Shown here in pieces: positions 2,902-53,241 of a stretch of 64,000 nucleotides of DNA. The position numbers were made by a program, and so were the translations under genes. The stretch is from Patiria pectinifera. Taxonomy: Eukaryota > Echinodermata > Asteroidea > Valvatida > Asterinidae. The number at the start of each line of letters is the position of its first letter. Position 1 is the first letter of the stretch. The stretch covers positions 12,481,501 to 12,545,500 of the forward strand of contig CM057146.1 of NCBI GenBank assembly GCA_029964075.1, in the 5' to 3' direction. The notes beneath the pieces are model-generated. The model made no database searches. It had not been told where the DNA came from and was given only the letters and a program-made list of their open reading frames with translations.

Positions 2902-3952
2902 CTGTCAGATCCAGAACAGTTTCCTCGTGGTCTACTGGAGCAAATACCATGGCCTTCAATAGTACATTTGGTCCGCCTTCATCTGAAATTTAAGGAATTA
3001 AAAAGGTCATCTAAAGCACATGTATACGTATTTATAAACTGGCTTATCCATTTTGTGCCAGCAACAAAAGAGATATAGCGCACAGCCGCACATAGGCGGG
3101 CGCTTTCGAATTAAAATAAACCAAACAGGTGACGTCATCTTAAAAAGAAGATTTTAAGTTTTATATCTAGAGAACTACAGGTTCGATTGGGTTGAAACCT
3201 TGAAGGTGCATGGACAGGGATGTGTTGTAGACGAAAATTGAAATGAGATTATTATGACGTCATAATGTGATTTTATTCAGATCTTTGAAATTTTGAAGAT
3301 TATAATCATATCTCACGAACACAACATGCTCAAATCAAAATTGACAGTCACAACTATCAGCCCAATTGTGTTAGAAAGTTGTGACTCGTTATAATGTCAG
3401 CCAAAACATAACTTTTTTTATATATCGATCATTTACACGCATATACACTTCCACAGGGAAGCATAAACCAGTAACAAAATCATAACGCTGAAAGGTCCTA
3501 TATATTCTGTTCTTAGACAGATATAGACTTTGTCTTGTTCTTCTTTTTTTTTTTTTAATGTATTTGCACAGTACCTAAAACATCTGTAGTGCTACCCAGT
3601 AGAGCTTGCTTGTACTTGACCAGACTTTCATCATCGGCGTCAAGTTCTTGAAGCGTCTGCAAGTCCACTTTTTTGGGCGGTTTGTAGTCGCGGGTAAGCT
3701 CTTCAGTACCCCTCTGAGCTGGCACGGCTTCTGGTTCATCTCCCCTCTTTACTGCACTCCGACAGGGAGAGACAGAATTAACTTGAACGCTTGCATTACA
3801 TTATACTACATTAAAGAAGATTCCCTGCTGAAAATGATAATAAAAAGAACTTTCCGTGGTTTGGGGCAGTACCTTACAAAGAGTAGCAGTTGTTTACTGC
3901 AGACTGACGCGGTACATGGATGCATGGGTTAACACGTACCTTTTCCAGACAT
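2902..3952 (-). CDS. ARHGDI: Second RhoGDI gene, exons 1-3 only (copy A; rest lies left of the window)
   Basis: Exon 1 is 3952-3940, exon 2 is 3751-3575 (177 nt) and exon 3 is 2982-2902, with the same splice sites and phases as copy B. Exon 2 encodes the canonical arm: EELTRDYKPPKKVDLQ then ELDADDESLVKYK. The intact YKPP motif makes this copy look closer to the ancestral RhoGDI than copy B. No stop or frameshift is seen. Exons 4-6 would lie to the left of position 1 if the 33-kb unit repeats again. If no such exons exist there, this is a truncated duplicate. Confidence 0.88.
3130..3262. promoter_or_regulatory. Two perfect TGACGTCA palindromes in RhoGDI intron 2 (copy A)
   Basis: TGACGTCA (the CREB/ATF consensus) occurs at 3130-3137 and 3255-3262, with a third at 2210-2217. 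All three are retained in copy B at 36195-36202, 36318-36325 and 35259-35266. Whether they act as enhancer sites is unknown. Confidence 0.35.
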
Positions 3953-8967: not shown

Positions 8968-9528
8968 ATGCCACTCTCTAACTATTCCAAATGGCAAGAA
9001 ATAGGTGCGTCTCCGACTGTTATTAGTTGGCTTCAATGTGGTGTTACACTACCGTTTACCACTTACCCACCGGTGATTGAATTGCTTAACAGAAATTTTT
9101 CAAGTGATCAAAACACTTTTCTGAATAGTGAGATAAAGAACTTGCTTCAGAAAGGTATGATTGCCAGATGTGCCTTTAAACCTAGAGTTGTCGCTCCACT
9201 GAATGTGGTACCGAAGAAGGGCAAAAACAAGTGGAGACTTATTATTGCTCTTCGTGTTGTTAATTCTTACATTAATGCTCCCAAGTTTTCTAACGAGAAA
9301 ATTCATGTTGTTTATTCATTAGTGAAGAGTGAGGACCAGTTAATTACGATTGATCTCAAGGATGGGTTTTATCATGTGCCTGTGTGTGAATCTCAACAAA
9401 CCTTCCTAGGGTTTAAATGGAATCATAATTGTTATTGCTGGACCAGACTTCCATTTGGGTTAAATATGCCTCACCTTACTTCTTTGCAAAAGTTTTACGA
9501 CCGGTTCTTGAATAATGTTAGGGTCTAA
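8968..9528 (+). pseudogene. Truncated DIRS-like reverse transcriptase, copy A
   Basis: The frame shows the N-terminal half of a reverse transcriptase: EIKNLLQKGMIARCAFKPRV, VVPKKGKNKWRLII, motif A TIDLKDGFYHVPV with the first catalytic Asp, FLGFKW and LPFGLN. The wording around LPFGL and, in module 3, FAKVLRPVL resembles DIRS-order elements. It breaks just after LPFGLN by a one-base deletion, and the YxDD motif C is absent, so it cannot be active. Expected RNase H and tyrosine recombinase domains are not seen downstream. Confidence 0.82.
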
Positions 9529-22343: not shown

Positions 22344-22540
22344 TTATTCCCAATCTTTCTTAACGGAGAAACTCCACTCCCACTCTAAGTAGATATTCTT
22401 GTCATCGTCTGTGAATTTACTCTTGACAAAGTAGACACCACGGCTTAGCATACCTGTGGGTAACTCTTCCACAGGAGTCTGGAAGAATTGCTCTTCCGTT
22501 TTGGGCCCGTAACTTCCAACCATGAAATTGTGCTTGTCCA
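22344..22540 (-). CDS. ARHGDI: RhoGDI exon 6 (C-terminal half of the core, stop)
   Basis: This is a 197-nt coding exon with acceptor ttctttgcag. It encodes VDKHNFMVGSYGPK, TPVEELPTGMLSRGVY, KSKFTDDDK and LEWEWSFSVKKDWE, then TAA. These are the most conserved RhoGDI strands; FTDDDK and the second Trp of WEW correspond to human Asp185 and Trp194. The open frame continues upstream past the splice site to about 22,925, but that part reads intron and GACTC repeats and is not protein. Only about 30 nt of ordinary intron separates the exon from a TIR transposon. Confidence 0.96.
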
Positions 22541-25500: not shown

Positions 25501-28500
25501 ACAAAGGACAAGTTGCCGTCTTTATAGGCATCATGAATACTTTTGTAACATCGCGGTTCATTTGATTTATATTTCGACCACCACCACTGACCACGATTTA
25601 CAATTTTTCTTTTGTCGTGGTTTACTTCTTTTTTTTTAAAGATATTGTCCATCATTTGTAATTTATGCATTTTGTTCGTTTGAGGCACCAAAAGTGCTCA
25701 AAATCTGAAGAAGGGTGCTGAACAACTAACTTGATGAAGTTTCAGATCAGCTTCAGCTGTACATTCCGAGAAAAACAGCATTCTAGGATCTCAATTTTAA
25801 ATCAAAAGTTGCTGAATCATGTTTTGAATTGGGCCTGAATTCAGCGTCCGAGACACGTTCTCACTGAGCCGATTGCAGCTACGCGATGTCGCGCATCAAT
25901 CCGACGAATTATAGCAACTGCGCGCGCGTGTGCGTCGTGCAAATGCTTGCGCGCGCTTCGCCGAATAACAAAAACGAACTACTAATTAAATGTTCCAACG
26001 GTGCGTCTTAAGAAGGCCTTCTTTCGTCAATTTCTTCAAAATGACAGCTTGCCAGAAAGAATAATTTCACAAGAAGTTTAGTCTCCTTACTATCTTTCAA
26101 CCAAGTATGTTTTTCAACAATAATTTTGCCAGTTACTTTTCGGATAGCTGCAAAATGATGGACTATAGCTTTAATGCCGCAGTTCCTTTTTTGGCGTTTT
26201 GGAAATAATAATCACTGCGGAAATGTGTCCTTTTAGAACATCATAATACGTGTGCGTGACCAAAATGCGCGTCAACTCTTCATACAACGCGCGCGATATA
26301 TACGCGTAGAACGTTTGTAATTATACGCGGCCATCTTCGTGAGACCGGGGGCGAACTGGTCAATATGCAAAATCTACTGTGTGACTGGTGTATGGATATC
26401 CGCAATCCAGTCTTTATATAGAGATCAGTGGTCGCAGCGCTGCGATGCATCGTAAGTTACGAAGAGTTTGATGAGGATCAATTGAACTATGTACACGGTA
26501 CGCAGTGGCTGCGCTTTGGGGTTTGGGGTACATGACTCAGCAATTTGTAATGAAAATTTTCAATCAGTTTTCAGGTTGGGCACATTGTTTTTGGATATTT
26601 TGTGTTTCAATGTGGACGGTCTTCAATATTGCCAGAACATCCTTCTAGCCTATTTAGAACTTAAAATTCAAGCATTTCTAGAAATTCCCTACACCCTATT
26701 TTGTTCTATCCATTTTCAGCATTAATTAAAGTAGATTTGCAAGTGATCTTGGATTTTGCATCCCTAAGCAATACCCTTAACTGCGATGGTTCCTCAGCAC
26801 AAACAAAGAAAAGGCAGCTATTAATTAGGGCACCATGTCGCGTCACATTGAGACTTTTTTGGAGGGTCCAAAAAAGATGGTTGCCCTGTACTACGGGTGT
26901 TTTCTCACAAAAAGCACACCCATGCAGTGTTCTATTCAAGTTCAGCACATTACAAGTCCATTCACAAAAAAAATCACATATACATTTTAAAATCTGGTCA
27001 CAAGTAGTAGAGGATGACTAATAACAAAAGATTGCATTAGTCAGAGGTCATTTCAACAGCTTGTGAAAGACCTTTGGACTGGATATTGCGTGACTAAAAT
27101 CAAAATGCAACACCGTACATTCACTCACCTCTGATGCCCTTTCTGTAAATAGCTTGAAAATACCGCAGTCCAGAGACAAATTCACGTTGGATCTTATTGG
27201 ATACAGACCAAAAAAACGAAGACAACAATTCAAGAATCACGAAAAATCTTACTTTAAGTCTATTCTGTTCGGACCGCACGCCTGAGTGCAGAAGTCATCA
27301 TCATCATTATCAGTAAGATTTGAGGCTTTGCATGGTGGAGATACTAAATAATGAAAGGTTTGCGGAAACACCATGTGCGAATAATTTCTCAACTAAGAGA
27401 ATGGTTCTGAAAAGAACCAGAGGTATAAACTCGACGTTCCGGTCAGTATGCTCTGACCGTCTTTAGGAGAGTGCCTAAACTCTAAGAAAGTGAATACTTA
27501 AGTAGCAAAAGGCGAAGTCAATGAAGTGAGAAGTTGCATCCTGTGCGGATGCCAAGTAGACAGGATCCTAGAACAATCATCATTATCATTCTCAACCGTT
27601 ATCTGCCCACTGCAAGGTGAAGGCCTTCCCAAGATGGCGAGAGCCTGTGCCGCTCTCATCCTTGATCTTCTGTATGCCTCCGCTAACGGAGATTAGCCTT
27701 CCCCGTCTCTGGCAGCCAACCGCACCAGATTCCTCCAAGATGTTTTCTCCTTGCCCGATCGGGATGCAGCCCCAATCGACAGACCTGTCCCGTTGCGGAT
27801 GTCAGCTATATACTGTCGCCATTGCCGGCCTCTCTGCCTCTTCCCTGGATGGTATCCAGCAATTATGTCCCAAGACAAACCACCGTGGCCAAAGAAGCTG
27901 TGTCGTGGTTTTGACATTGGCGAGCAGGGTTCTTGTGGTGCTGAGCTCCTAGAGGATGCTGTCATTAGTCCGTTTGTCTCTCCCGGTAAAGCGGAGAATC
28001 CTGCGATAGACCCACATTTTAACAGCCCTAGAGCGCGTTTCTCTGCAGCTCGTATTTTAGGACATGCCAGATGAGGGCACATACTATATGGAGTTTGACT
28101 TTCCTGGAGTGACACCTCTATCTTTCCAGATGGGCACCTCGCCCAGTGTGCGCTTCTTTGCCATTGTTATTCTGCTCTTGATGTCTGTTGAGCAGACGCC
28201 GTTCGTTGTCTTGAGGGAACCCAGATATTTAACCTGTGCCACACGCTCGACCTCTGTATAGTGCATGGACCATATACCAGCCAAAGTGGAATATTACACT
28301 TTGGACGGCATTTTGTGGTAAAAGCAGGCAACCATGTCAGATCAGTTAGTTAAAGGATGGAGAAGAAAAAAATAGGTGGATGCCACCCTTAATTTTTTAG
28401 GTAGATAGATAGATAAAAAGATAGACAGATCAGATGAGATAAGATAAGACTAGATAGATTAGATAGATTAGATAGATTAGATATATTAGACAGATTTGAC

Positions 28501-31500
28501 AGATTAGATAGATTAGATAGATTAGATAGATTACATAGATTAGATAGATTACATAGATTACATAGATTACATAGATTACATAGATTAAATAGATTACATA
28601 GATTACATAGAGACAGACAGACAGACAAGCCCGACAGCACGACAGACAGAAAGACAGACAGATATTATATATTTATTCCCATATTTCGGTATATTCTTCA
28701 ATTTTTAAGAAAAAACAAGTATTTTAGTGATCGTACTTCACACCCTTCCCTAAATAACATGTACTTCAGGTTCGGCAAGACTACTTGAAGACTACTTGAA
28801 GATATCTGGAGCCAGGTAAATTCGCAACTTTTGGGTATAATAGTAGCAATTTTGGATCGTTACTACGTCCTCATAATTATTCAGTAACTTATATGCTTTA
28901 GAAAAATGTTGATAAAGGAAGGCTGTGCAAGTAGAATCACCTTTTTTTCAAAATAAAAAAACAACAAATATACCCAAATATGGGGGGAAATATGTTACAC
29001 GGATGGTATTAACGCTGCAAATACATGAACTGTCTCTCTTGGTCTCCATTGCACAGCTTTGTCCATCTGTTGTCATTTGTTCAGGGCATAACATGCCCTG
29101 CCCGCTTCCATTTTCACTTCATCATCTTCTATGATGTCTTATACTCTGTTTGCTCTCTTATTCGTTAACACGTTTTATTCTGTCCTTTTAGCTTCTTTGC
29201 GTTGTTTGGATCATTATTACACGACAAATCAAAACTTTTAATTATTAGTCTTTTTTAATGAATTGATGTATCATCACAAACCTTTACATAGTTTCAAAAT
29301 ATCAAACCCGTAAAATATGCAAGTAACAAAAAATAACATCATCATGGCTGCCAGGACATCAAAAAAAAAAAGACAGCTTGGCAGTCTTGCAAACCCCCCA
29401 AAACACACTGCAAATAGGTTAAATATTTAAGTTACTTTTTCTCAAAATGTCCTTATAAAGTGAGATACATCAATTTACCGAAATAGGGCTTGCGGCACTG
29501 AAGAGTTTATGCAATACTGTACACAATTGTCTTATTTGACTCCTTTTTGAATATTGATCTTTTCGCTTTCGGTGTAAAGTCTTTTGGATGATATTCCCCA
29601 GCTATAGATTTTCTTAATAATCTGTATATAACTTTGATGTATTCTAATGCCTTCTAATGCCTCCTGATGCCTCTTGATGCCAAATGGCTAGTGATGACTT
29701 AATTCTGATGCCTAATACTGATGTCTCTTTGATGCCTCAATGCTCGATGGTCAGTCATGACTTCTATTGCCTTACTGGTGCCTCTTTGAAGCCCCTTTGA
29801 TGCCTGATGGCTAGAGATGACTTTATTCTGATGCCTTGGTGATGCCTCATTGATGCCTCAATGCTCGATGGTCAGTCGTGACTTCTGTTGCCTTACTGGT
29901 GCCTCATTGATGCCCCTTTGATGCCTGATGGCTACAGATGACTTTATTCTGCTGCCTTGCTGGTGCCTCATTGATGCCTCAATGCTCGATGGTCAGTCAT
30001 GACTTCTATTGCCTTACTTGTGCCTCTTTGATGCCCCTTTGATGCCTGATGGCTAGAGATGACTTTATTCTGATGTCTTGCTGGTGCCTCATTGATGCCT
30101 CAATGCTCGATGGTCAGTCGTGACTTCTATTGCCTTACTTGTGCCTCTTTGATGCACCTTTGATGCCTGATGGCTAGAGATGACTTTATTCTGATGCCTT
30201 GGTGATGCCGCATTGATGCCTCAATGCTCGATGGTCAGTCGTGACTTCTGATACCTTCCTTGCAGGTGTCCTACCACTCGACCGAGCTAACGGGATCGGT
30301 TGGCTGGTTCGAATCTGATGTACATAGCAGCGGGTACCGCATAAACTATTATAAGATGGAATTTTGCGTCGGGGTGATATAAATCAAATTAGTTTGCCCT
30401 TCACCGACGTATAAACGCACGAAGGGCAAACCTAATTTGATTTATATCACCCGACGCAAAATTCCATGATGCCTTAATGTTCGATGGTCAGTCGTAGCTT
30501 CTAATGCCTTCCTGGTGCTGCTTTGATGTCTGATGCCTTGGTGATGCCTCTTTGATGCCTCAATGCTCGATGGTCAGTCATAACTTATGATGCCTTCGTG
30601 ATGCCTTCGTGATGCCTTGCTGATGCCTGATGGTCTGTCATGACCACGAATGCCTTCCTGGTGCCTCATTGATGCCACTTTGATGCCTGATGGCTAGTGA
30701 TGGCTTAACGCTAATGTGTTGCTGATGCCTCTTTGATGCGTCAATGCTAGATTGTCAGTCATAATATCTAATACCTGGTTCCTCTTTAATTGATGCCCCT
30801 TGGATGCCTGATTGTTAGTGATGACATACTTCTGATGCCTTGCTGATGCCTCTTTGATGACTCAACGCTCGATGGTTAGTCATGACTTCTACTGCCTTTA
30901 TGCTGCCTTCCTGGTGCCTCGTTGATACACCTTTGATGCTTGATGGCAAGTGATGACTTAATTCTGATTCCTTGCTGATCGATGCCTCTTTGATGCCTCA
31001 ATTCCTCGATGTTCAGTCATAACTTTCAATGATTTCCGGATGCCTCTTTGATGCCCCTTTGATGCCTGATGGCTAGTGATGACTTAATTTTGATGCCTTG
31101 CTGCTGCCTCGTTGATGCCTCAATGCTCGAAGGCCAGTCAGGTTTTATGATGCCTCTTTATTCCTCAGTGCTCGATGGTCAGTCATGACTAATGATGCCT
31201 TTCTGAAGCCTCTTTGATGCCCCTTTGATGCCTGATACAGTCAATGATGACTTCTGATCGATGCCTGTTTGATGGCCGTTTGATGCCTGTTTGATACCTG
31301 CCTGTGATGCCTGATGCTCAGTGATGACTTCTGATGCCTTCCCGATACCTAATATTGATGCCTAAACAATGCCATGTGCTTCAGATGAACATCAGCAGTC
31401 ATCATTTTTACATCAATTATATGTTTCTTGATGATTGATTAATGTACGCCTTTAATGTTTTTCTTTATAAACTTTGCTCAAATTGCTACTCTTTTGATGA

Positions 31501-34500
31501 CCATTTGATGCCTATTTGATGGCAAGGCAGCTAATTCATGGCAAGTTCAGCCAAGCCGCCTGAAAGGTAAAGGGCGTTATCTTGGCATTGGGAGTTAAAG
31601 GAAATACACAACTTTTGCTTTTGCTGTACTTTTCAGAAAGGATGTAGTTGGGCGGAGTATATTGCAGCAAATATCGTCATTGAACTGACCTGTTAAAGTT
31701 TGTGTTTATACATGCAGATGCTGAAAGAAAAAAAAAACCGAAAGCTGTTCTTGTAGTCTAGTTGCCTGACCTTACTTCAGACGAAACAGACCAATTTATA
31801 GAGGACGGGGAATTGTCAGGTCAGGGAACTGAATCAACTGGTCTCCACCCGTTCACGGATGTGTAACTTCAAACAAAATGTGGACTTATAAACTTGTTAA
31901 AATGGGGCAGTATTTGAACCAAAATAGTATTTTTTTCCAATGATGGGCAGTACAAAATGATCAACTTTTCTTGAAAATGACAGCACACCAGGTGCAATGA
32001 TTACACATGACGCATGGGCCCTGGACTACGATTTTTATATTTTTTTTTATGTTGCAAATGATTAAGGTGTATATATTCCCTTTTAAAAAATTCCAAGTAT
32101 GCCCCATGGTTTGCACATTAGCAAGAACATAATCCCCAAAATATTCTGGTTGGTGTGTTTTCCATGATTCAATATTTCAAACGCAGGCTCCGATATAATA
32201 GAATCTACTCACCTTGAATTTGATTTTATTAATCCTAAATTTGATTTTAATCTTCATGCTACGCACAATAGCGAGATCCATAATGTGGCTGTTGCATTTC
32301 CATTGATGCAATTCTTGAAAGGCAGGCACTGTCAATATAAATTAGAATCAACTCACCCTGAACTTGAGTTTAATCCTGTACTCGGCGCCTTCCTTAACCA
32401 CAATTGGGTTTTGCTTCAATTGAGACATATCACCTTAGAACATGCCAGAAACCGGAGACTTTTTTTTTTGGCCTTAGCAAGAATATGGCAATCCCAAAGC
32501 AATCTGGTTGTTACTGACTTAATGTAAAGTACTAGGTAGACTTAGCTCACCCTGAATTTGACTTCAAACCTGTAGGAGATGCCTTCCTTAACCACAAATG
32601 GCTTCCCCTTAAACTTAGAAAGATCACCTTGGAACAAAACAAAGAGGATGAAAAAAAGTGTGACAATCCAAGTGAAAATTGGGAAAACAAAACAATTTCA
32701 AAAGAAGACAACATAGTTTAAAGCCACATAGGATCACTTGCATTTGTTGCGATAATGCCAAGGCTAAGTCCTTAACAGTGTGGCGTAACTAGGGTTAAAC
32801 TTCTAGGCAGGCACCTGCGGGTCCATTTTTTTTTAAGGGGAGACTGAAGTGAGAATATGGTCAACTGCATTTTTGTTAAATATTTTTTGGGGGGAGGGGG
32901 AGGGTTGTTAAAAAAAATATGGCCGTTTAGAAGTTATTTAGGCACCTTTTTCACATACAAAGTGTTACATGTAATGTGAGTTTCTTTTTTTAAGGCAGAG
33001 AAGTAAGGTACATTTTTTTATGCGAATAGCCTTTTGGGGGGGGGTCGGCTTTTAGTATTGTTTTTGTTGATGTGGGCGGGGGGGGGGCAACATGGGACAC
33101 TCGCACATCCATGCTAAAATGTTCACACTTTTTCCGGGCATTTTTTGGCATCCGTAATATCAGAAAATGGTGGGGGAGGGGCTGGTATACCATCTTCCAA
33201 TGGGGGCGGTCTTTACAACCGACGATTATGCAAACTTGGCGATTTTCAGGGCGCATTGTAATGCATTTGTCGTTCATGTCCTCTCTATACCAATTTTGGG
33301 AATATCGTTACAAACAAAATATTATATATTTGCCAACGTGGACAGACTGCATTGTGAGATACCTACCATAACGTAAGTTACCAATATTAATATCCCTCTA
33401 GAGAGTTTACGATTGTTTTTTTGATAATTGAACTGGCAGCTTGCACATGACTTACACCCGACCGACACCCGGGTGTCGGTCACTTCGCTAAATGTCCACT
33501 TCGCCGACAACCACTTCGCCGTACATGGAGCAGTGTGGTGCAACATAATTGTTTTGCTTTGTCCTTTTCTGGTAACGTGAGTTATGCCTACTAATAACAA
33601 AAACATTGCCAGACCAATAAAAGTTGGTTTTGTTGCCCTTTTTGTAGAATGTGCGCTTAATTTCAAGAGATTTTCTGTGAGAAAAATAGTCCGAAGCCCC
33701 ATTGGTCCGAAGTCCCATTGGTCCGAAGTCCCAATTGTCCGAAGTCCCATTGGTCCGAAGTCCCATTGGCCCGAAGTCCCATTGGTCCGAAGTCCCATTG
33801 GTCCGAAGTCCCATTGGTCCGAATTCCCATTGGTCCGAAGTCCCATTGGTCCGAAACAGAATACTGTGGCGGAACCGATCCTGACACCATTTGTGGCGGA
33901 ACCGGCGGGTGTTGGCGGGAACCCGAGGGGACTGGTCTTACTTATCCCGGGACTCCAACCCACACCAATTATCCCACAAAAATATTTATTAGCCTAACGA
34001 ACGGGTAAGCGGCTACCCATACGAAAGGGGGGACAATTAACGAACGGTGGACTAAGCCTAGGGGCTGTTCGTTTGGTGGAAATTTACCATCGTTTTGTGA
34101 TTGAGTAATTCATTGAATGTAAATAGAGCAAGACAAGTAGCGACGATAGGCCTCAAAGTGAACTCAGGTAACCCTCACAACAGACCTAGGTAACCCTCAG
34201 TGAACTTGGTAACCATCACAGTGAACCTAGTAACCCTCAAGGTGAACCTGAGTAACCCTCACATAGACGAGTTATTCCAAAGACGATTATCAATAGGATT
34301 TATTCAAGAATAGTTATAACAAGGGTCACTTGCAGTTACTGCACCCTTTGTAGTAAACTTAGCCTTGGGTAACCCTCACGTGGTCAACTGCACCACATGA
34401 TTATAAACTTATACAAGTATAATCCCTGTTATTATCACAGTTCCAATAACCCTCACACAGATTGAGCTGTCCCAATAACCCTCACAGAGGAAAGGTAACC

Positions 34501-37015
34501 CTCAACCCAATTTACACTATGAGCCCGATGTACATATAGCCCTCGCACAAGAAAGGTAACCCTCAACACGATTTATCGTCAGAGCAGGCTGTACTTTGTA
34601 ATCCAAATAACCCTCACACGATCGAGCGGTCCCATTAACCCTCACAGGAAACCAGTAAACCTCACAGTGAGTTATACAATATAAACCTTACGTGCAATAA
34701 ATCTCACATGAAACAGGTAACCCTCACAAGTGCTCAGAACACGGCAAAGAGTAAACTCGTTAGGCAAGCTAATCCAATGGTTACGGCAATGATTGCCTCA
34801 GTCGTAAAACCCCACCGAATGGTGTCCAACCCACGACAAGCAATCTACCAGCGAATCACAGTCTCACTAGCCTCTCAAACCAAGTTGTACAACTCCTAGC
34901 CCTTTTGTTCTAGCATTAATCAAGACACAATAATCAGTCTTAATTTCCCTACTAGATTCCATCTAAATCTTTGACCCCAATTATCTTAGACAGCCGACAC
35001 TAAATAACAGACCTTGAGCTACAACTTCCCTCAACATATATTAGATAACACTTAGCTTACTGCTAATAACCCGGGGCTACAACTCCCGAACCCGGCCGCA
35101 CCAGAGCGTCCACCATCAGAGATGAGCTCCTACTCCCGACCGGGGAGTACGTAACAGCAACGAAGCCCCAGCAACGGTACCGTGACTTGACTCGTCCCTG
35201 AACCCTGAAGCTTGGCTTCTTGCAACAGCAACAGCACCAGAACGCGTTCCTACTACATTGACGTCATCTTGCGAACTCACGAGATGATCTCAGGACCCCA
35301 CGCTAAAGCATGCTAATTCGCGCACAGCCTTCACAATACGCGTTGCTGATTGGTCACTGTACACCATGAATTATTAATCTCCTGATCACGCAGAACAATT
35401 TATTGCTAATTGGTCCACGCGCACTTTGGCATTATAAGCACGCACCAAATGTCCTAGATCACGCGCATAAATAATTCCTAGGACTTAGACTCCTACACAA
35501 GTCTTCATATACATGTCCCCTGTTTCGTCACAATACTGTGTAGTTCCACTTGTTCAGGTTGACTGACTCTAACCCTAACCCTAATCCTATGGGGCGTCGG
35601 ACCAATGGGACTTCGGACCAATGGGATTTCGGACCAATGGGACTTCGGATCAATGGGACTTCGGACCAATGGGACTTCGGACCAATGGGACTTCGGGCCA
35701 ATGGTACTTCGGACCAATGGGACGTCGGACCAATGGGACGTTTATACCAATGGAACGTATAGACCAATGGGACTTCGGACCAATGGGACTTCGGACCAAT
35801 GGGACTTCGGACCAATGGGACTTCGGACCAATGGGACTTCGGACTATAGAGACGTCCCCGAAAAATCAACCCTAAATGCTTTGGATTTATAGAATGACAG
35901 CACAGAGTTTACGAAAGACCCCCCTCTATAAATATAACTGTGGAACTGCCCTGTGTTTTCGTTTACCTGTCAGATCCAGAACAGTTTCCTCGTGGTCTAC
36001 TGGAGCAAATACCATGGCCTTCAATAGTACATTTGGTCCGCCTTCATCTGAAATTTAAGGAATTAAAAAGGTCATCTAAAGCACATGTATACGTATTTAT
36101 AAACTGGCTTATCCATTTTGTGCCAGCAACAAAAGAGATATAGCGCACAGCCGCACATAGGCGGGCGCTTTCGAATTAACATAAACCAAACAGGTGACGT
36201 CATCTTAAAGAAGATTTTAAGTTTCATATCTAGAGAACTACAAGTTCGATTGGGTTGAAACCTTGAAGGTACATGGACAGGGATGTGTTATAGACGAAAA
36301 TTGAAATGAGATTATTATGACGTCATAATGTGATTTTATTCAGATCATTGAAATGTTGAAGATTATAATCATATCTCACGAACACAACATGCTCAATCAA
36401 AATTGTTTTGTAACAAGTTAGTTATGTCAAAACTATCAGCACAATTGTGTTAGAAAGTTGTGACTCGTTATAACGTCATCCAAAACATGATTTTCTTTTT
36501 ATATTTCGATCATTTACACGCATTATACACTTCCACAGAAAAGCATAAACCAGTAACAAAATCATAACGCTGAAAGGTCCTATATATATAGGCAGATATA
36601 GACTTTGTCTTGTTCTTCTTTTTTTTTTTTAATGTATTTGCACAGTACCTAAAACATCTGCAGTGCTACCCAGTAGAGCTTGCTTGTACTTGACCAGACT
36701 TTCATCATCGGCGTCAAGTTCTTGAAGCGTCTGCAAGTCCACTTCTTGGCGCGGTATGTACCCTTCAGTACCCCTCTGAGCTGGCACGGCTTCTGGTTCA
36801 TCTCCCCTCTTTACTGCACTCCGACAGGGAGAGACAGAATTAACCTTAACGCTTGTATTACATTATACTACATTTAAGAGGATTCCCTGCTGAAACTGAT
36901 AATAAAAAAGAACTTTCCGTGGTTTGGGGCAGTACCTTACATAGAGTTGCAGTAATTTTCTGCAGACTGACGCGGTACAGGGATGCATGGGTTAACACGT
37001 ACCTTTTCCAGACAT
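22344..37015 (-). CDS. ARHGDI: Rho GDP-dissociation inhibitor (RhoGDI), complete spliced gene
   Basis: RhoGDI binds prenylated Rho/Rac/Cdc42, blocks GDP release and holds them in the cytosol. Joining 37015-37003, 36813-36649, 36047-35967, one 77-nt exon (32627-32551 or 32433-32357), 27192-27129 and 22540-22344 gives 597 nt, a 198-aa protein with stop; vertebrate RhoGDI has about 200-204 residues. Every junction is AG/GT with matching phase (1, 1, 1, 0, 1). Family landmarks seen: the N-terminal arm with ELDADDESL and KYKQALLG, the immunoglobulin-like core with FVVKEG, the MVGSYGP strand, FTDDDK (human Asp185) and the WEW pocket Trp near the end. Intron positions match those I recall for vertebrate RhoGDI. 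Exons 1-3 lie in duplicated copy B and exons 4-6 in the interval before it. No convincing TATA box is seen. The polyadenylation site is uncertain; a minus-strand AATAAA near 21,430 is one candidate. Confidence 0.93.
22574..23217. mobile_element. hAT-like TIR element with GACTCGACTCGAG repeats, RhoGDI intron 5
   Basis: Ends CAGAGTTGTAATGACTC and GAGTCATTACAACTCTTG (inverted). Both flanks contain TTATGC. Subterminal blocks (about 22,580-22,760 and 23,020-23,190) are built of gactcgactcgagtc units. The left end is 31 nt from the exon 6 acceptor. Confidence 0.72.
23220..23950. other. Intron sequence, no feature beyond a short (ccga)n tract
   Basis: Part of RhoGDI intron 5. A few accgaccgaccgactgacc units lie near 23,840. 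No coding sequence seen. Confidence 0.6.
25400..26430. mobile_element. hAT-like element with perfect 8-bp target duplication
   Basis: Ends CACTGATCTCTATATAAAGA and the inverse TCTTTATATAGAGATCAGTG, flanked by GTCGCAGC at 25,392-25,399 and 26,431-26,438. Length is 1,031 bp. An 8-bp duplication with CA..TG ends fits hAT. It contains the TTAA MITE at 25,640-26,170 and no intact transposase, so it is non-autonomous. Confidence 0.9.
25640..26170. mobile_element. TTAA-flanked MITE nested in a hAT-like element
   Basis: Relative of 11,110-11,632, with ends near AAAGATATTGTCCATC and GATGGACTATAGCTTT, TTAA on both sides. The centre shares acaacttgatgaagtttcag-type sequence with the first copy. Confidence 0.8.
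26480..27128. other. RhoGDI intron 5, no other feature seen
   Basis: No exon with matching splice sites was found between the repeat nest and exon 5. Confidence 0.6.
27129..27192 (-). CDS. ARHGDI: RhoGDI exon 5
   Basis: This is a 64-nt exon, acceptor ccaataag after a T-rich tract and donor GTGAGT. It encodes IQREFVSGLRYFQ then AIYRKGIR plus one base. It aligns without gaps to the 21-residue human segment from V118 to K138, with the REIVSG and TYRKG landmarks. It starts in phase 0, compatible with either exon 4 version, and ends in phase 1, compatible with exon 6. Confidence 0.94.
27575..28300 (-). mobile_element. LINE 3' end relic, RhoGDI intron 4
   Basis: Minus-strand frames contain VKYLGSLKTTNG with DIKSRITMAKK (about 28,230-28,165), then MWVYRRILRFTGRDKRTNDS and, in another frame, RGRQWRQYIADI with GLSIGAASRSGKEKTSWR (about 27,790-27,700). 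This order is the usual C-terminal tail after the reverse transcriptase of one non-LTR group. Frames shift at least twice. The 3' end has a catcatcattatc-type tail. Confidence 0.75.
28399..28660. repeat. GATA/GATTA and GACA microsatellite
   Basis: Runs of agatagattagatagatta, shifting to acatagattacatagatta and then (gaca)n. It lies in RhoGDI intron 4. Confidence 0.95.
28665..29635. other. RhoGDI intron 4, no feature seen
   Basis: AT-rich, with no exon or transposon ends recognised. Confidence 0.55.
29640..31330 (+). repeat. GATGCC minisatellite with 121-bp higher-order unit
   Basis: Short ttgatgcctc-type units form a higher-order repeat. The landmark tgctcgatggtcagtc recurs at 29,741, 29,862, 29,983, 30,104 and 30,225, exactly 121 bp apart, then more irregularly to about 31,190. 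It is interrupted by a hairpin insertion at 30,250-30,467. It lies in RhoGDI intron 4. Confidence 0.93.
30356..30467. repeat. 47-bp-arm hairpin inside the GATGCC array
   Basis: Arms ATGGAATTTTGCGTCGGG.. and ..CCCGACGCAAAATTCCAT match along 47 bp with one offset base, around an 18-nt loop accgacgtataaacgcac. No proteins. Probably a compact foldback element or MITE. Confidence 0.85.
31420..32210. other. RhoGDI intron 4, no feature seen
   Basis: No exon or repeat recognised until the decayed exon copy at 32,213. Confidence 0.5.
32213..32289 (-). pseudogene. Decayed third copy of RhoGDI exon 4
   Basis: The 3' part reads KIKIKFR then INKIKFK followed by a perfect AAG|GTGAGT donor, like the ends of exons 4a and 4b. 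The flanking intron is also related: ttctnnt..actcacc next to the donor, and a shared block around 32,115-32,150 and 32,478-32,510. The 5' part is not recognisable. The only nearby acceptor (AG at 32289-32290) would give a 76-nt exon in the wrong phase with an early stop. I read it as a degenerated tandem exon duplicate; a highly divergent functional exon is less likely. Confidence 0.55.
32357..32433 (-). CDS. ARHGDI: RhoGDI exon 4b (alternative, downstream copy)
   Basis: This is the second intact 77-nt version of exon 4, with acceptor ttctaag and donor GTGAGT. It encodes DMSQLKQNPIVVKEG and then AEYRIKLKFR, equivalent to human residues 93-117. Relative to exon 4a it keeps PxVVKEG but differs at many positions, including Ile in place of Phe at human position 102. 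The intron separating it from exon 4a is 117 nt (32434-32550). Its acceptor tract is purine-interrupted and overlaps sequence that resembles a MITE end found elsewhere in the window. Confidence 0.9.
32551..32627 (-). CDS. ARHGDI: RhoGDI exon 4a (alternative, upstream copy)
   Basis: This is a 77-nt exon with 25 whole codons, acceptor ttccaag after a strong pyrimidine tract and donor GTGAGC. It encodes DLSKFKGKPFVVKEG and then ISYRFEVKFR, equivalent to human residues 93-117. Human Phe102, which I recall as lining the isoprenyl pocket, is Phe here; human Ser101 (a PAK site) is Pro. A sister exon with the same length and phases lies 194 bp downstream. Because 77 is not a multiple of three, using both or neither would break the frame, so the two should be mutually exclusive. 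Confidence 0.92.
33460..33481. repeat. 22-bp perfect palindrome present only in copy B
   Basis: gaccgacacccgggtgtcgg plus tc is self-complementary. In copy A the matching place (about 429) has lost the palindrome, leaving a short junction, as expected for deletion of a hairpin during replication. Confidence 0.8.
33688..33856 (+). repeat. 16-bp minisatellite, first array, copy B
   Basis: Same array as 634-803 with the same unit variants, located in RhoGDI intron 3 (32,628-35,966). Confidence 0.95.
34158..34730 (+). repeat. Dispersed degenerate GTAACCCTCAC motif, copy B
   Basis: Near-identical copy of 1,107-1,680. The motif is kept with the same spacing; the few differences are single bases and a one-base indel. 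Confidence 0.8.
35594..35844 (-). repeat. 16-bp minisatellite, inverted second array, copy B
   Basis: Same as 2,544-2,781 but with one additional 16-bp unit at the right end, so the array length varies between duplicates. It ends about 120 bp before RhoGDI exon 3. Confidence 0.93.
35967..36047 (-). CDS. ARHGDI: RhoGDI exon 3 (first core strand), copy B
   Basis: The exon is 81 nt, acceptor tttcag and donor GTAAAC. It encodes GGPNVLLKAMVFAP and ends VLDLT plus the first base of Gly, matching the first beta strands of the RhoGDI immunoglobulin-like domain (human residues about 66-92). The preceding exon's final G joins the leading AT to make Asp. The following exon completes Gly as G|GT. The sequence is the same in copy A (2902-2982). 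Confidence 0.93.
36649..36813 (-). CDS. ARHGDI: RhoGDI exon 2 (N-terminal regulatory arm), copy B
   Basis: This 165-nt exon encodes 54 whole codons. It includes VDLQTLQELDADDESL and VKYKQALLG, which match the helix-turn-helix arm that clamps the Rho switch regions (human Asp45 lies in the DDES motif). The acceptor has a pyrimidine-rich lead (tctgtctctccctgtcgg); the donor is GTACTG. Compared with copy A it lacks 12 nt, and the conserved YKPP stretch (human Tyr27 region) reads YIPR, although the frame stays open. Differences cluster in about 30 nt while the rest of the exon is nearly identical between copies. Confidence 0.92.
37003..37015 (-). CDS. ARHGDI: RhoGDI exon 1 (start codon), copy B
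   Basis: The coding part is ATG TCT GGA AAA G followed by donor GTACGT, so the protein begins Met-Ser-Gly-Lys and the fifth codon is split in phase 1. The next acceptor (gtgcag, 36814-36819) supplies TA, completing Val. The exon is too short for ORF finders. I chose this ATG because it is followed directly by a strong donor in the right phase, and the same arrangement is kept in copy A at 3940-3952. The 5' UTR extends upstream to an unknown start. Confidence 0.78.
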
Positions 37016-45810: not shown

Positions 45811-46864
45811 AGTTATTTTGTTCAATCTCGTCTGAGGTTTTGAAAGGTTAATTTGGAACAGGGACGCCCAAAAACGGAAGTTATCCAATGAACACCTGTT
45901 CTTCTCATCCCGAAACCGATCTGTACAGTCCTTTCAGTCGCCGTAAGCTCTGGGGATTAGCAGGACATTAGGCCTTGTCGTCGTGTTGCTAATGTGTGCA
46001 TGCTGGCCAGCATTGGTAGGCTAATATACATTGACCCGTTCCTGAATCACACGTTAATTAAACTCCAAACTACAATGTAAAAATGTTTGGTAAATAATTC
46101 GTTGGGCAAAATATAAACAACACAATATGTATTAGGCAATGTTGCCCGATAGTTAAACGTGTTAACTATTCGCCAATCGTTGGTCGAATAATCAACCCTT
46201 TTGCCCAACTTTTTTTTACAGTGCAGGTTTGAAACTGTACGGCATTGCAAAAACCACGACGTTCACTTCAGTTCAGATACATATATTTACGTTTGAAAAC
46301 CTCTGAACGGTTCGAGGTCAATGGAGCTGGAGGTCCGGTGAAAAAAGAAAGAAAACCAGATGAACTTACCACGACTAAGTGTTACAAAAGTGAGTCACAA
46401 TAATAAGGCGGCAACTTGCGCTTTACTAAACACCAACCGATCTCCACGAGGGGCTCCAAGTAGCTGTCTTTTTTTCTGCGGTTCTCTGTTCGCTATCCAG
46501 TCACACTGAAAGAGTAGAGTTTTTTTATGGCGAGGACACGAATGAGTAAGTAGTGGCGATCGCGATATGGCCGCTTTCACCTCCGCCCACGGTTGAACAG
46601 ACTTGGTTATTTCCACCGTGAAAGCATTGGCTTAAATTCGTCCTTGGGTAGTGGGTTTTTTTTCAATGCAAACAAACTAAATAAAATATGCACCAACACA
46701 CAAACTAAATGGCAATGAACCTTATGGCTTGCATAGAAATAGAAATTTTACCTGCATTAATTGAGGTTGAAATTCTACCTCCATTTGCATAACTAAATAT
46801 CAATGTGACCCTGCACAAACACACTTGATATACACGCATATCTGTAAAGGTACTGCGTACTGTA

Positions 46865-47286
46865 TTCCCGCTCTCTTGGGTGTTATATCAGCACCCGTTG
46901 GATTGGTGCTAGAAGGAACGTTTATAGGCCCTTTTGGTATAGATATTCTGCTTAGAATCGTGTGTAAGCGATTATCCGCCAAGCTAAAAAAGCACGACCA
47001 GATTAAAATATTAGCAGACTCCAAACTTAACACGATTGAAGAATATGTGTCTCAAGCCATCAACGACGGAGATATATCGCACGAAGAGTTTATATTGATT
47101 ACGAGAGAGCTCGCAAAATTTAACGAGCTCAAGCAGAAAATTAGAACAAAGACCAGCACAAAGCTTCACAAAATTAAAAGCGATTCAGACTTTGACAAAG
47201 AAGTTAAAAAACGGGTAGACGAACGGCTGGCAAAGGAAAAAAATCTCTTTTCGAAAAACTTACAAGTTCGAATTCTCAGTAAATAA
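46865..47286 (+). CDS. ORF of unknown function, tandem unit 1 (5'-truncated, frameshifted end)
   Basis: A Gly/Pro/hydrophobic segment (IPALLGVISAPVGLVLEG, then GTFIGPFGIDILLRI) is followed by a charged helical region (KLKKHDQIKILADSKLNTI, then ELAKFNELKQKIRTKT). I recall short proteins of this layout as multicopy, mobile-element-linked families in cnidarians and other marine invertebrates, but cannot verify this. The frame is open back to a TTG at 46,825, but that part is retroelement tail; there is no ATG, so it is a truncated insert. A missing A in an A-run changes the last ~14 residues relative to unit 3. Confidence 0.5.
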
Positions 47287-48790: not shown

Positions 48791-49853
48791 AGTTATTTTG
48801 TTCAATCTCGTCTGAGGTTTTGAAAGGTTAATTTGGAACAGGGACGCCCAAAAACGGAAGTTATCCAATGAACACCTGTTCTTCTCATCCCGAAACCGAT
48901 ATGTACAGTCCTTTCAGTCGCCGTAAGCTCTGGTGATTAGCAGGACATTAGGCCTCGTCGTCGTGTTGCTAATGTGTGCATGCTGGCCAGCATTGGTAGG
49001 CTAATACAGTGTGTATACATGACCCGTTCCTGAATCACACGTTAATTAAACTCCAAACTACAATGTAAAAATGTTTGGTAAATAATTCGTTGGGCAAAAT
49101 ATAAACAACACAATATGTATTAGGCAATGTTGCCCGATAGTTAAACGTGTTAACTATTCGCCAATCGTTGGTCGAATAATCAACCCTTTTACCCAACTTT
49201 TTTTTACAGTGCAGGTTTGAAACTGTACGGCATTGCAAAAACCACGACGTTCAGTTCAGTTCAGATACATATAATAACGTTTGAAAACCTCTGAATGGTT
49301 CGTGGTCAATGGAGCTGGAGGTCCGGTGAAAAAAAAGAAAACCAGATGAACTTACCACGACTAAGTGTTACAAAAGTGAGTCACAATAATAAGGCGGCAA
49401 CTTGCGCTTTACTAAACACCAACCGATCTCCACGAGGGGCTCCAAGTAGCTGTCTTTTTTTCTGCGGTTCTCTGTTCGCTATCCAGTCACACTGAAAGAG
49501 TAGAGTGTTTTTTATGGCGAGGACACGAATGATTAAGTAGTGGCGATCGCGATATGGGCGCTTTCACCTCCGCCCACGGTTGAACAGACTTGGTTATTTC
49601 CACCGTGAAAGCATTGGCTTTCGTCCTTGGGTATAAGTGGTTTTTTTTTCCAATGCAAACAAACTAAATAAAATATGCACCAACGCACAAACTAAATGGC
49701 ACAATGAACCTAATGGCTTGCATAGAAATAGAAATTTTACCTGCATTAATTGAGGCTGAAATTCTACCTCCATTTGCATAACTAAATATCAATGTGACCT
49801 TGCACAAACACACTTGATATACACGCATATCTGTAAAGGTACTGCGTACTGTA

Positions 49854-50275
49854 TTCCCGCTCTCTTGGGTGTTATATCAGCACCCGTTGGATTGGTGCTA
49901 GAAGGAACGTTTATAGGCCCTTTTGGTATAGATATTCTGCTTAGAATCGTGTGTAAGCGATTATCCGCCAAGCTAAAAAAGCACGACCAGATTAAAATAT
50001 TAGCAGACTCCAAACTTAACACGATTGAAGAATATGTGTCTCAAGCCATCAACGACGGAGATATATCGCACGAAGAGTTTATATTGATTACGAGAGAGCT
50101 CGCAAAATTTAACGAGCTCAAGCAGAAAATTAGAACAAAGACCAGCACAAAGCTTCACAAAATTAAAAGCGATTCAGACTTTGAAAAAGGAGTTAAAAAA
50201 CGGGTAGACGAACGGCTGGCAAAGGAAAAAAATCTCTTTTCGAAAAACTTACAAGTTCGAATTCTCAGTAAATAA
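49854..50275 (+). CDS. ORF of unknown function, tandem unit 2
   Basis: Copy of the 46,865 ORF 2,989 bp downstream. It differs by Asp-Lys-Glu to Glu-Lys-Gly near the C-terminus and shares the A-run frameshift, ending QVRILSK. No ATG start. Confidence 0.5.
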
Positions 50276-51770: not shown

Positions 51771-52822
51771 TATTTTGTTCAATCTCGTCTGAGGTTTTGA
51801 AAGGTTAATTTGGAACAGGGACGCCCAAAAACGGAAGTTATCCAATGAACACCTGTTCTTCTCATCCCGAAACCGATATGTACAGTCCTTTCAGTCGCCG
51901 TAAGCTCTGGGGATTAGCAGGACATTAGGCCTCGTCGTCGTGTTGCTAATGTGTGCATGCTGGCCAGCATTGGTAGGCTAATATACATTGACCCGTTCCT
52001 GAATCACACGTTAATTAAACTCCAAACTACAATGTAAAAATGTTTGGTAAATAATTCGTTGGGCAAAATATAAACAACACAATATGTATTAGGCAATGTT
52101 GCCCGATAGTTAAACGTGTTAACTATTCGCCAATCGTTGGTCGAATAATCAACCCTTTTGCCCAACTTTTTTTTACAGTGCAGGTTTGAAACTGTACGGC
52201 ATTGCAAAAACCACGACGTTCAGTTCAGTTCAGATACATATATTTACGTTTGAAAACCTCTGAACGGTTCGAGGTCAATGGAGCTGGAGGTCCGGTGAAA
52301 AAAGAAAGAAAACCAGATGAACTTACCACGACTAAGTGTTACAAAAGTGAGTCACAATAATAAGGCGGCAACTTGCGCTTTACTAAACACCAACCGATCT
52401 CCACGAGGGGCTCCAAGTAGCTGTCTTTTTTTCTGCGGTTCTCTGTTCGCTATCCAGTCACACTGAAAGAGTAGAGTGTTTTTTATGGCGATGGCACGAA
52501 TAAGTACGTTGTGGTAATCGCGATATGGCCGCTTTCACCTCCGCCCACGGTTGAACAGACTTGGTTATTTCCACCGTGAAAGCATTGGCTTAAATTCGTC
52601 CTTGGGTAGTGGGTTTTTTTTCAATGCAAACAAACTAAATAAAATATGCACCAACACACAAACTAAATGGCAATGAACCTTATGGCTTGCATAGAAATAG
52701 AAATTTTACCTGCATTAATTGAGGTTGAAATTCTACCTCCATTTGCATAACTAAATATCAATGTGACCCTGCACAAACACACTTGATATACACGCATATC
52801 TGTAAAGGTACTGCATACTGTA

Positions 52823-53241
52823 TTCCCGCTCTCTTGGGTGTTATATCAGCACCCGTTGGATTGGTGCTAGAAGGAACGTTTATAGGCCCTTTTGGTATAG
52901 ATATTCTGCTTAGAATCGTGTGTAAGCGATTATCCGCCAAGCTAAAAAAGCACGACCAGATTAAAATATTAGCAGACTCCAAACTTAACACGATTGAAGA
53001 ATATGTGTCTCAAGCCATCAACGACGGAGATATATCGCACGAAGAGTTTATATTGATTACGAGAGAGCTCGCAAAATTCAACGAGCTCAAGCAGAAAATT
53101 AGAACAAAGACCAGCACAAAGCTTCACAAAATTAAAAGCGATTCAGACTTTGAAAAAGGAGTTAAAAAACGGGTAGACGAACGGCTGGCAAAGGAAAAAA
53201 AATCTCTTTTCGAAAAACTTACAAGTTCGAATTCTCAGTAA
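52823..53241 (+). CDS. ORF of unknown function, tandem unit 3 (intact C-terminus)
   Basis: Third copy, 2,969 bp further on. The A-run has one more A, and the end reads KKSLFEKLTSSNSQ, continuing the charged helix naturally; this is probably the original frame. The stop codon's last bases (GTAAATAA) form the target duplication of a hAT-like insertion. Confidence 0.5.

Follow-up and report, generated by a model that had tools for sequence, protein, structure and literature searches.

A homologous, frame-incompatible exon pair in sea star RhoGDI genes and the probable capture of one of its exons from a sister gene

Homologous exons that substitute for one another are commonly put down to duplication within a single gene. 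Two neighbouring exons, 4a and 4b, in a RhoGDI gene (Q3) of the sea star Patiria pectinifera raise the question of whether that explanation applies here, and whether both exons are put to use. The pair lies in a stretch of 64,000 nucleotides, referred to below as the window (Table 1). We lean towards the view that it is an alternative pair assembled from two sister RhoGDI genes, with both exons in use.

Table 1 Features of the Q3 gene, in window positions
Feature	Position	Strand	Remarks
Exon 2, coding part	36649-36832	(-)	acceptor not fixed; without the ATG of P2
Exon 3	35967-36047	(-)	
End of intron 3, including 4a acceptor tract	32628-32747	(-)	R-type, 16/18 diagnostic sites
Exon 4a	32551-32627	(-)	77 nt, P-type; product DLSKFKGKPFVVKEGISYRFEVKFR
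4a-4b intron, 117 nt	32434-32550	(-)	P-type start, transposon terminal repeat, TTCTAAG with the 4b acceptor at the end
33-nt transposon end	32441-32473	(-)	same sequence as nt 1-33 of the P element; length equal to the terminal inverted repeat
Exon 4b	32357-32433	(-)	77 nt, R-type; product DMSQLKQNPIVVKEGAEYRIKLKFR
4c, possible exon-4 remnant with GTGAGT donor	32213-32239 (about)	(-)	weak taken alone; intron after 4c resembles that after 4b
Exon 5	27129-27192	(-)	
Exon 6	22344-22540	(-)	contains the stop codon

The exon pair and its gene family

An earlier note on this DNA had described two 77-nt exons here, 194 nt apart on the minus strand, with identical phases and GT–AG sites, and all of this is confirmed by the sequence, the 194 nt being counted from start to start. 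Both exons begin at the second position of a codon and end at a codon border, both have AG and GT at their borders, and each keeps an open frame from exon 3 into exon 5. They share 58 of 77 bases and 14 of 25 residues and, with their borders included, are 77% alike over 100 nt. When both are included, translation reaches a stop at the sixth codon after 4a; when both are skipped, it stops at the fourth codon after exon 3. The claim that a productive transcript can use only one of them is thus borne out, and exon integrity and frame logic are established.

The pair resembles homologous mutually exclusive exons, treated in part of PMC9741552 as tandem duplicated exon substitutions, in that adjoining homologous exons of equal length and phase, each with its own AG and GT, exchange one segment of a protein. 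The non-productive frame with both exons or neither is a supporting feature of that class. The homology and frame incompatibility of the exons stand from the earlier description of a mutually exclusive pair in a RhoGDI gene, and their mutually exclusive use, with both spliced, is plausible. Among the open-access matches listed (in one list, 10 of 272), none describes by its title a RhoGDI splice switch of this type.

By sequence, the gene belongs to the RhoGDI family (PF02115; human RhoGDI1, PDB 1cc0), a family defined by the binding of prenylated Rho GTPases and the blocking of GDP release. With either exon spliced in, the Q3 protein matches nearly the whole of the Rho_GDI family model, at 196.2 bits with 4a and 196.4 bits with 4b (cut-off, 26.5). 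The Q genes differ from the family in having two alternative segments for residues 93–117 and Phe at the place of Ile122, and a start codon was not found in them. This mapping comes from the protein of a sister gene, P2, aligned to PDB chain 1cc0_E, in which the exon-4 Phe of P2 falls on Phe102; the alignment upholds both the span of 93–117 and the difference at human Phe102 given in the earlier note. In its register, 4a has Phe at residue 102 and 4b has Ile. We take Phe102 of RhoGDI to line the isoprenyl (prenyl) pocket, and the 4a and 4b forms might conceivably differ in prenyl or GTPase preference. Phe102 is not mentioned as a RhoGDI pocket residue in the available parts of PMC8622166, PMC5758567 and PMC9313812, and the Phe102 that appears in the available part of PMC6548291 is a residue of RabGDI rather than RhoGDI. 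The Phe at the Ile122 position lies in exon 5 and is found in the Q genes, whereas P, P2 and R have Ile.

We scanned the genome from which the window was taken (613.5 Mb, 1,020 contigs) with PF02115. All 37 candidates were scored, and 12 exon-level matches resulted, eight C-terminal and four N-terminal exons, every one of them on contig C18. Searches by tblastn in the regions around these matches yielded eight RhoGDI genes, here called S, P, P2, R and Q0 to Q3. The copy number of the pair is equally firm: both 4a and 4b are present in four of the eight genes, Q0, Q1, Q2 and Q3. P and P2 each have one exon 4, of a-type; one exon 4 was found in R, of b-type; and S has a single, divergent exon 4. 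The pair is not a chance resemblance, because it recurs at three further loci and because in three sister genes the sole exon 4 found is of a-type or b-type. A genome-wide nucleotide search, with the 581 nt that surround the pair as query, gave hits above 200 bits at seven places, corresponding to Q0–Q3, P, P2 and R; only 40 of 277 candidates were scored, so that weaker copies could be missed, and S is too distant to be reached.

Q0 and P2 lie about 0.5 Mb away, in an inverted copy of the P–Q block (C18 11.90–11.94 Mb, against 12.42–12.46 Mb). This inverted block could be either a genuine duplication or a misplaced haplotype. The window also covers two exons of Q2, exons 2 and 3 (2902-3770, minus strand); the remaining exons of Q2 lie just beyond.

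Mosaic sequence and a transposon footprint

Gene conversion or template switching between tandem paralogues copies short tracts and leaves mosaics. The Q genes have such a structure. Q3 aligns with R over 5.7 kb at 90.6%, and with P only in exons and short stretches, the best of which is 313 nt at 91% around 4a. Elsewhere, the introns of P and Q can hardly be aligned. We scored the mosaic at sites that differ between P and R. Before 4a, Q3 is R-like at 16 of 18 such sites. Exon 4a itself is P-like at 13 of 16 sites in Q3 (12 of 16 in Q0, Q1 and Q2), as are the next 30 nt of Q3 at 13 of 13. The sequence then changes back, and 4b with its following 30 nt is R-like at 28 of 29 sites in Q3. Of the 83 nt with which the intron after 4a begins, 82 match P in Q3 and 80 in each of Q0, Q1 and Q2. 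The R alignment across 4a was left out as forced, R having an unrelated insert there. An insert of about 220 nt sits in intron 3 of R just upstream of exon 4 (C18, about 12550372-12550590) and is absent from the four Q genes.

The short intron between the exons carries a second mark of its origin. In P, the corresponding intron contains a 368-bp element with TAA on both flanks, whose ends match at 28 of 33 positions and then at 0 of the next 17, which sets the terminal repeat at 33 nt. Just this terminal repeat is kept in the Q genes, with one A fewer in Q0, and the last seven bases of the 4b acceptor follow it directly. P2 has an empty site without the element. The family is dispersed, with at least 40 near-full-length copies on many contigs (40 of 1,810 candidates scored, P's own copy included), and the terminal piece alone gave at least 34 further matches in the 581-nt search (40 of 277 candidates scored). 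Its TAA flanks and GGCC ends are reminiscent of PIF/Harbinger elements.

The Q3 mosaic, together with the end of a transposon found entire in P and missing from P2, makes it very probable that 4a was copied from a P-type gene into an R-type gene, and the case for this direction is strong. As the element is complete in P and its site is empty in P2, the captured segment would have formed in a P-type gene after the insertion. Copying in the reverse direction, from Q to P, was considered and set aside; it would call for a complete element in Q, trimmed afterwards, as well as an exact excision in P2. A simple tandem duplication, our first idea, was dropped on the mosaic and transposon evidence: both copies with their flanks are expected to come from one gene, and here 4a and its intron are P-type and 4b is R-type.

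We propose that the recipient was of R-type and that its resident exon 4 is today's 4b. The patch, donated by a P-type gene and made up of exon 4a, the beginning of the intron that follows and the 33-nt transposon terminal repeat, would have landed between the R-type acceptor tract and exon 4b, and the hybrid gene would then have come to be present as the four copies Q0–Q3. Its pre-mRNA is predicted to be spliced to 4a or to 4b, with transcripts containing both or neither hitting an early stop and being lost, so that each Q gene could supply P-like or R-like residues 93–117 of the prenyl-binding domain.

The proposed event resembles gene conversion or template-switch patches in making a mosaic from a short tract exchanged between sister genes. 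It differs from them in that the resident exon was not replaced but gained a neighbour, and in that the patch ends exactly at a transposon terminal repeat. The mutually exclusive exons described in part of PMC9741552 are duplicates within a gene and, in human, mostly ancient events; in contrast, the putative alternative pair of the Q genes is young and very probably has one exon from a paralogue. Donor gene, recipient-type gene, empty and filled transposon sites and the junction can all be found in a single genome, so that the history can be followed base by base.

Exon 4 may have been doubled before. A possible remnant, 4c, follows 4b in Q and R alike. The intron that follows 4c is similar both to the one following 4b (z 10.0) and to the beginning of P2 intron 4 (z 8.6). 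The case for 4c rests on this intron likeness, because the exon remnant itself, aligned to R exon 4, scores 26, below the best of 300 shuffles (30; z 3.0). Two other comparisons, of the intron after 4b with P2 (z 1.8) and of the intron after 4a with that after 4b (z 0.9), were not significant. If 4c is real, exon 4 would have been doubled once already and one copy would have died; the present pair could meet the same fate.

Coding capacity and selection

In Q3 the reading frame runs uninterrupted from exon 2 as far as the stop codon in exon 6. The coding exons of Q0–Q3 and R differ by 32 nonsynonymous and 2 synonymous changes and contain no stops, which suggests that Q and R are live genes. 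From the intron rate of 0.0287 per site, we expected 13.5 nonsynonymous and 4.5 synonymous changes; this rate is lowered by the dropping of columns near gaps or in variable stretches, and it leaves out the last part of intron 4, where 81 columns are usable with R. The nonsynonymous share is above the neutral 75% (p = 0.004; 0.008 when counted by codon), in a test that is rough for the same reason and is weakened by conversion between copies, which makes changes come in blocks. The ratio is 24 to 1 without exon 5 (p = 0.007), 23 to 2 without exon 2 (p = 0.04; 0.07 by codon) and 15 to 1 within the Q genes alone (p = 0.06). Across the five genes, we found a single coding indel, of 12 nt, and no frameshift; intron 3 and the early part of intron 4, by comparison, show 50 indel events, of which 9 are multiples of three.

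Exon 4b is identical in Q0–Q3 and differs from R at three positions, all nonsynonymous. Its constancy is uninformative, because less than one change is expected in 77 nt at the Q intron rate of 0.0056. Comparison of 4a with 4b gave dN/dS of 1.01 in Q3 and 0.90 in Q2 (p = 1), which does not support positive selection between these exons, and P exon 4 against R exon 4 gave 1.77 (p = 0.34).

Exon 2 of Q0–Q3 and R lacks the ATG of P2 and has an in-frame stop upstream, so that these genes would need a further first exon. We sought one upstream in blocks of at least 60 nt shared by P2 with Q3 or Q1, and no clear exon with a start codon emerged; the only such block is one of 104–105 nt, GCAAC...GTTGC, which looks like a mobile element. 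The upstream comparison of P2 with R gave five common blocks.

Use of the two exons and competing explanations

Pyrimidines fill 18 of 21 positions of the acceptor tract at 4a, in R and in P, and 15 of 21 at 4b (Q3 and Q2); the 4b tract is poorer because it is now the end of the transposon. This difference, the transposon origin of the tract and the remnant state of 4c are what one would expect if only one exon, most likely 4a, were used in the Q genes, with 4b dead or dying after the loss of its acceptor tract, as 4c may have been before it. Exon 4b also shows no measurable conservation. However, 4b is undamaged and retains its AG and GT in each of the four Q genes, and its type is the sole exon 4 found in R; we regard single-exon use as possible but doubtful. 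We think that both exons are probably, though by no means certainly, in regular use. A 117-nt intron is probably long enough for splicing, so that exclusion would rest on the frame and on the loss of faulty transcripts.

Other explanations would deprive the pair of meaning or give it a different history. The Q and R genes could be decaying copies without a translation start, as the missing ATG, the upstream stop and the failure to find a start elsewhere in the upstream comparisons would allow, and the few synonymous and many nonsynonymous changes exclude strong purifying selection. Yet decay sits poorly with coding exons free of stops and frameshifts in five genes, with one 12-nt coding indel beside the many intron indels, and with a nonsynonymous share that exceeds the neutral one; we consider it improbable. 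An old tandem duplication within the gene, followed by loss of 4b in P and of 4a in R, is very unlikely. It would account for the likeness of 4a and 4b with their borders, and the similar introns after 4b and 4c make an earlier exon-4 duplication in the lineage seem likely, but 4a and its intron match P almost exactly where P and Q introns otherwise hardly align, and that intron contains the end of a transposon of which P has the full copy and P2 none. To an assembly error joining exons of separate genes or haplotypes we give hardly any weight: the cluster is repetitive, with Q0 and P2 in an inverted second copy, but one and the same junction is found at four separate Q loci.

Should both exons be spliced, the pair would form a splice switch within the RhoGDI prenyl-binding domain, and would illustrate how sister genes can be merged again into a single, alternatively spliced gene; protein variants that two genes encode separately may now come from one. 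We also offer a more tentative hypothesis, to which we would not yet commit: that the Q genes are active RhoGDI genes that evolve fast, within a cluster under selection for amino-acid change, and that in them the captured exon serves as a splice switch for the lipid-pocket segment of either sister gene and the transposon end enabled the switch by supplying the 4b acceptor tract.

The window holds several other features. Three near-identical open reading frames of 152–153 amino acids lie about 3 kb apart on the plus strand (46825-47286, 49814-50275 and 52783-53241); the one that was searched had no Pfam match. A 16-bp minisatellite (ATGGGACTTCGGACCA) occurs in Q3 intron 3 (35589-35844) and downstream of Q2 exon 3 (2540-2779). 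Q3 intron 4 contains a 121-bp tandem repeat (29642-30249) and an inverted repeat with perfect 21-nt arms and 39 nt between them (30372-30452). A reverse-transcriptase fragment (PF00078, E 9e-8) at 8968-9528, plus strand, is a retroelement relic.
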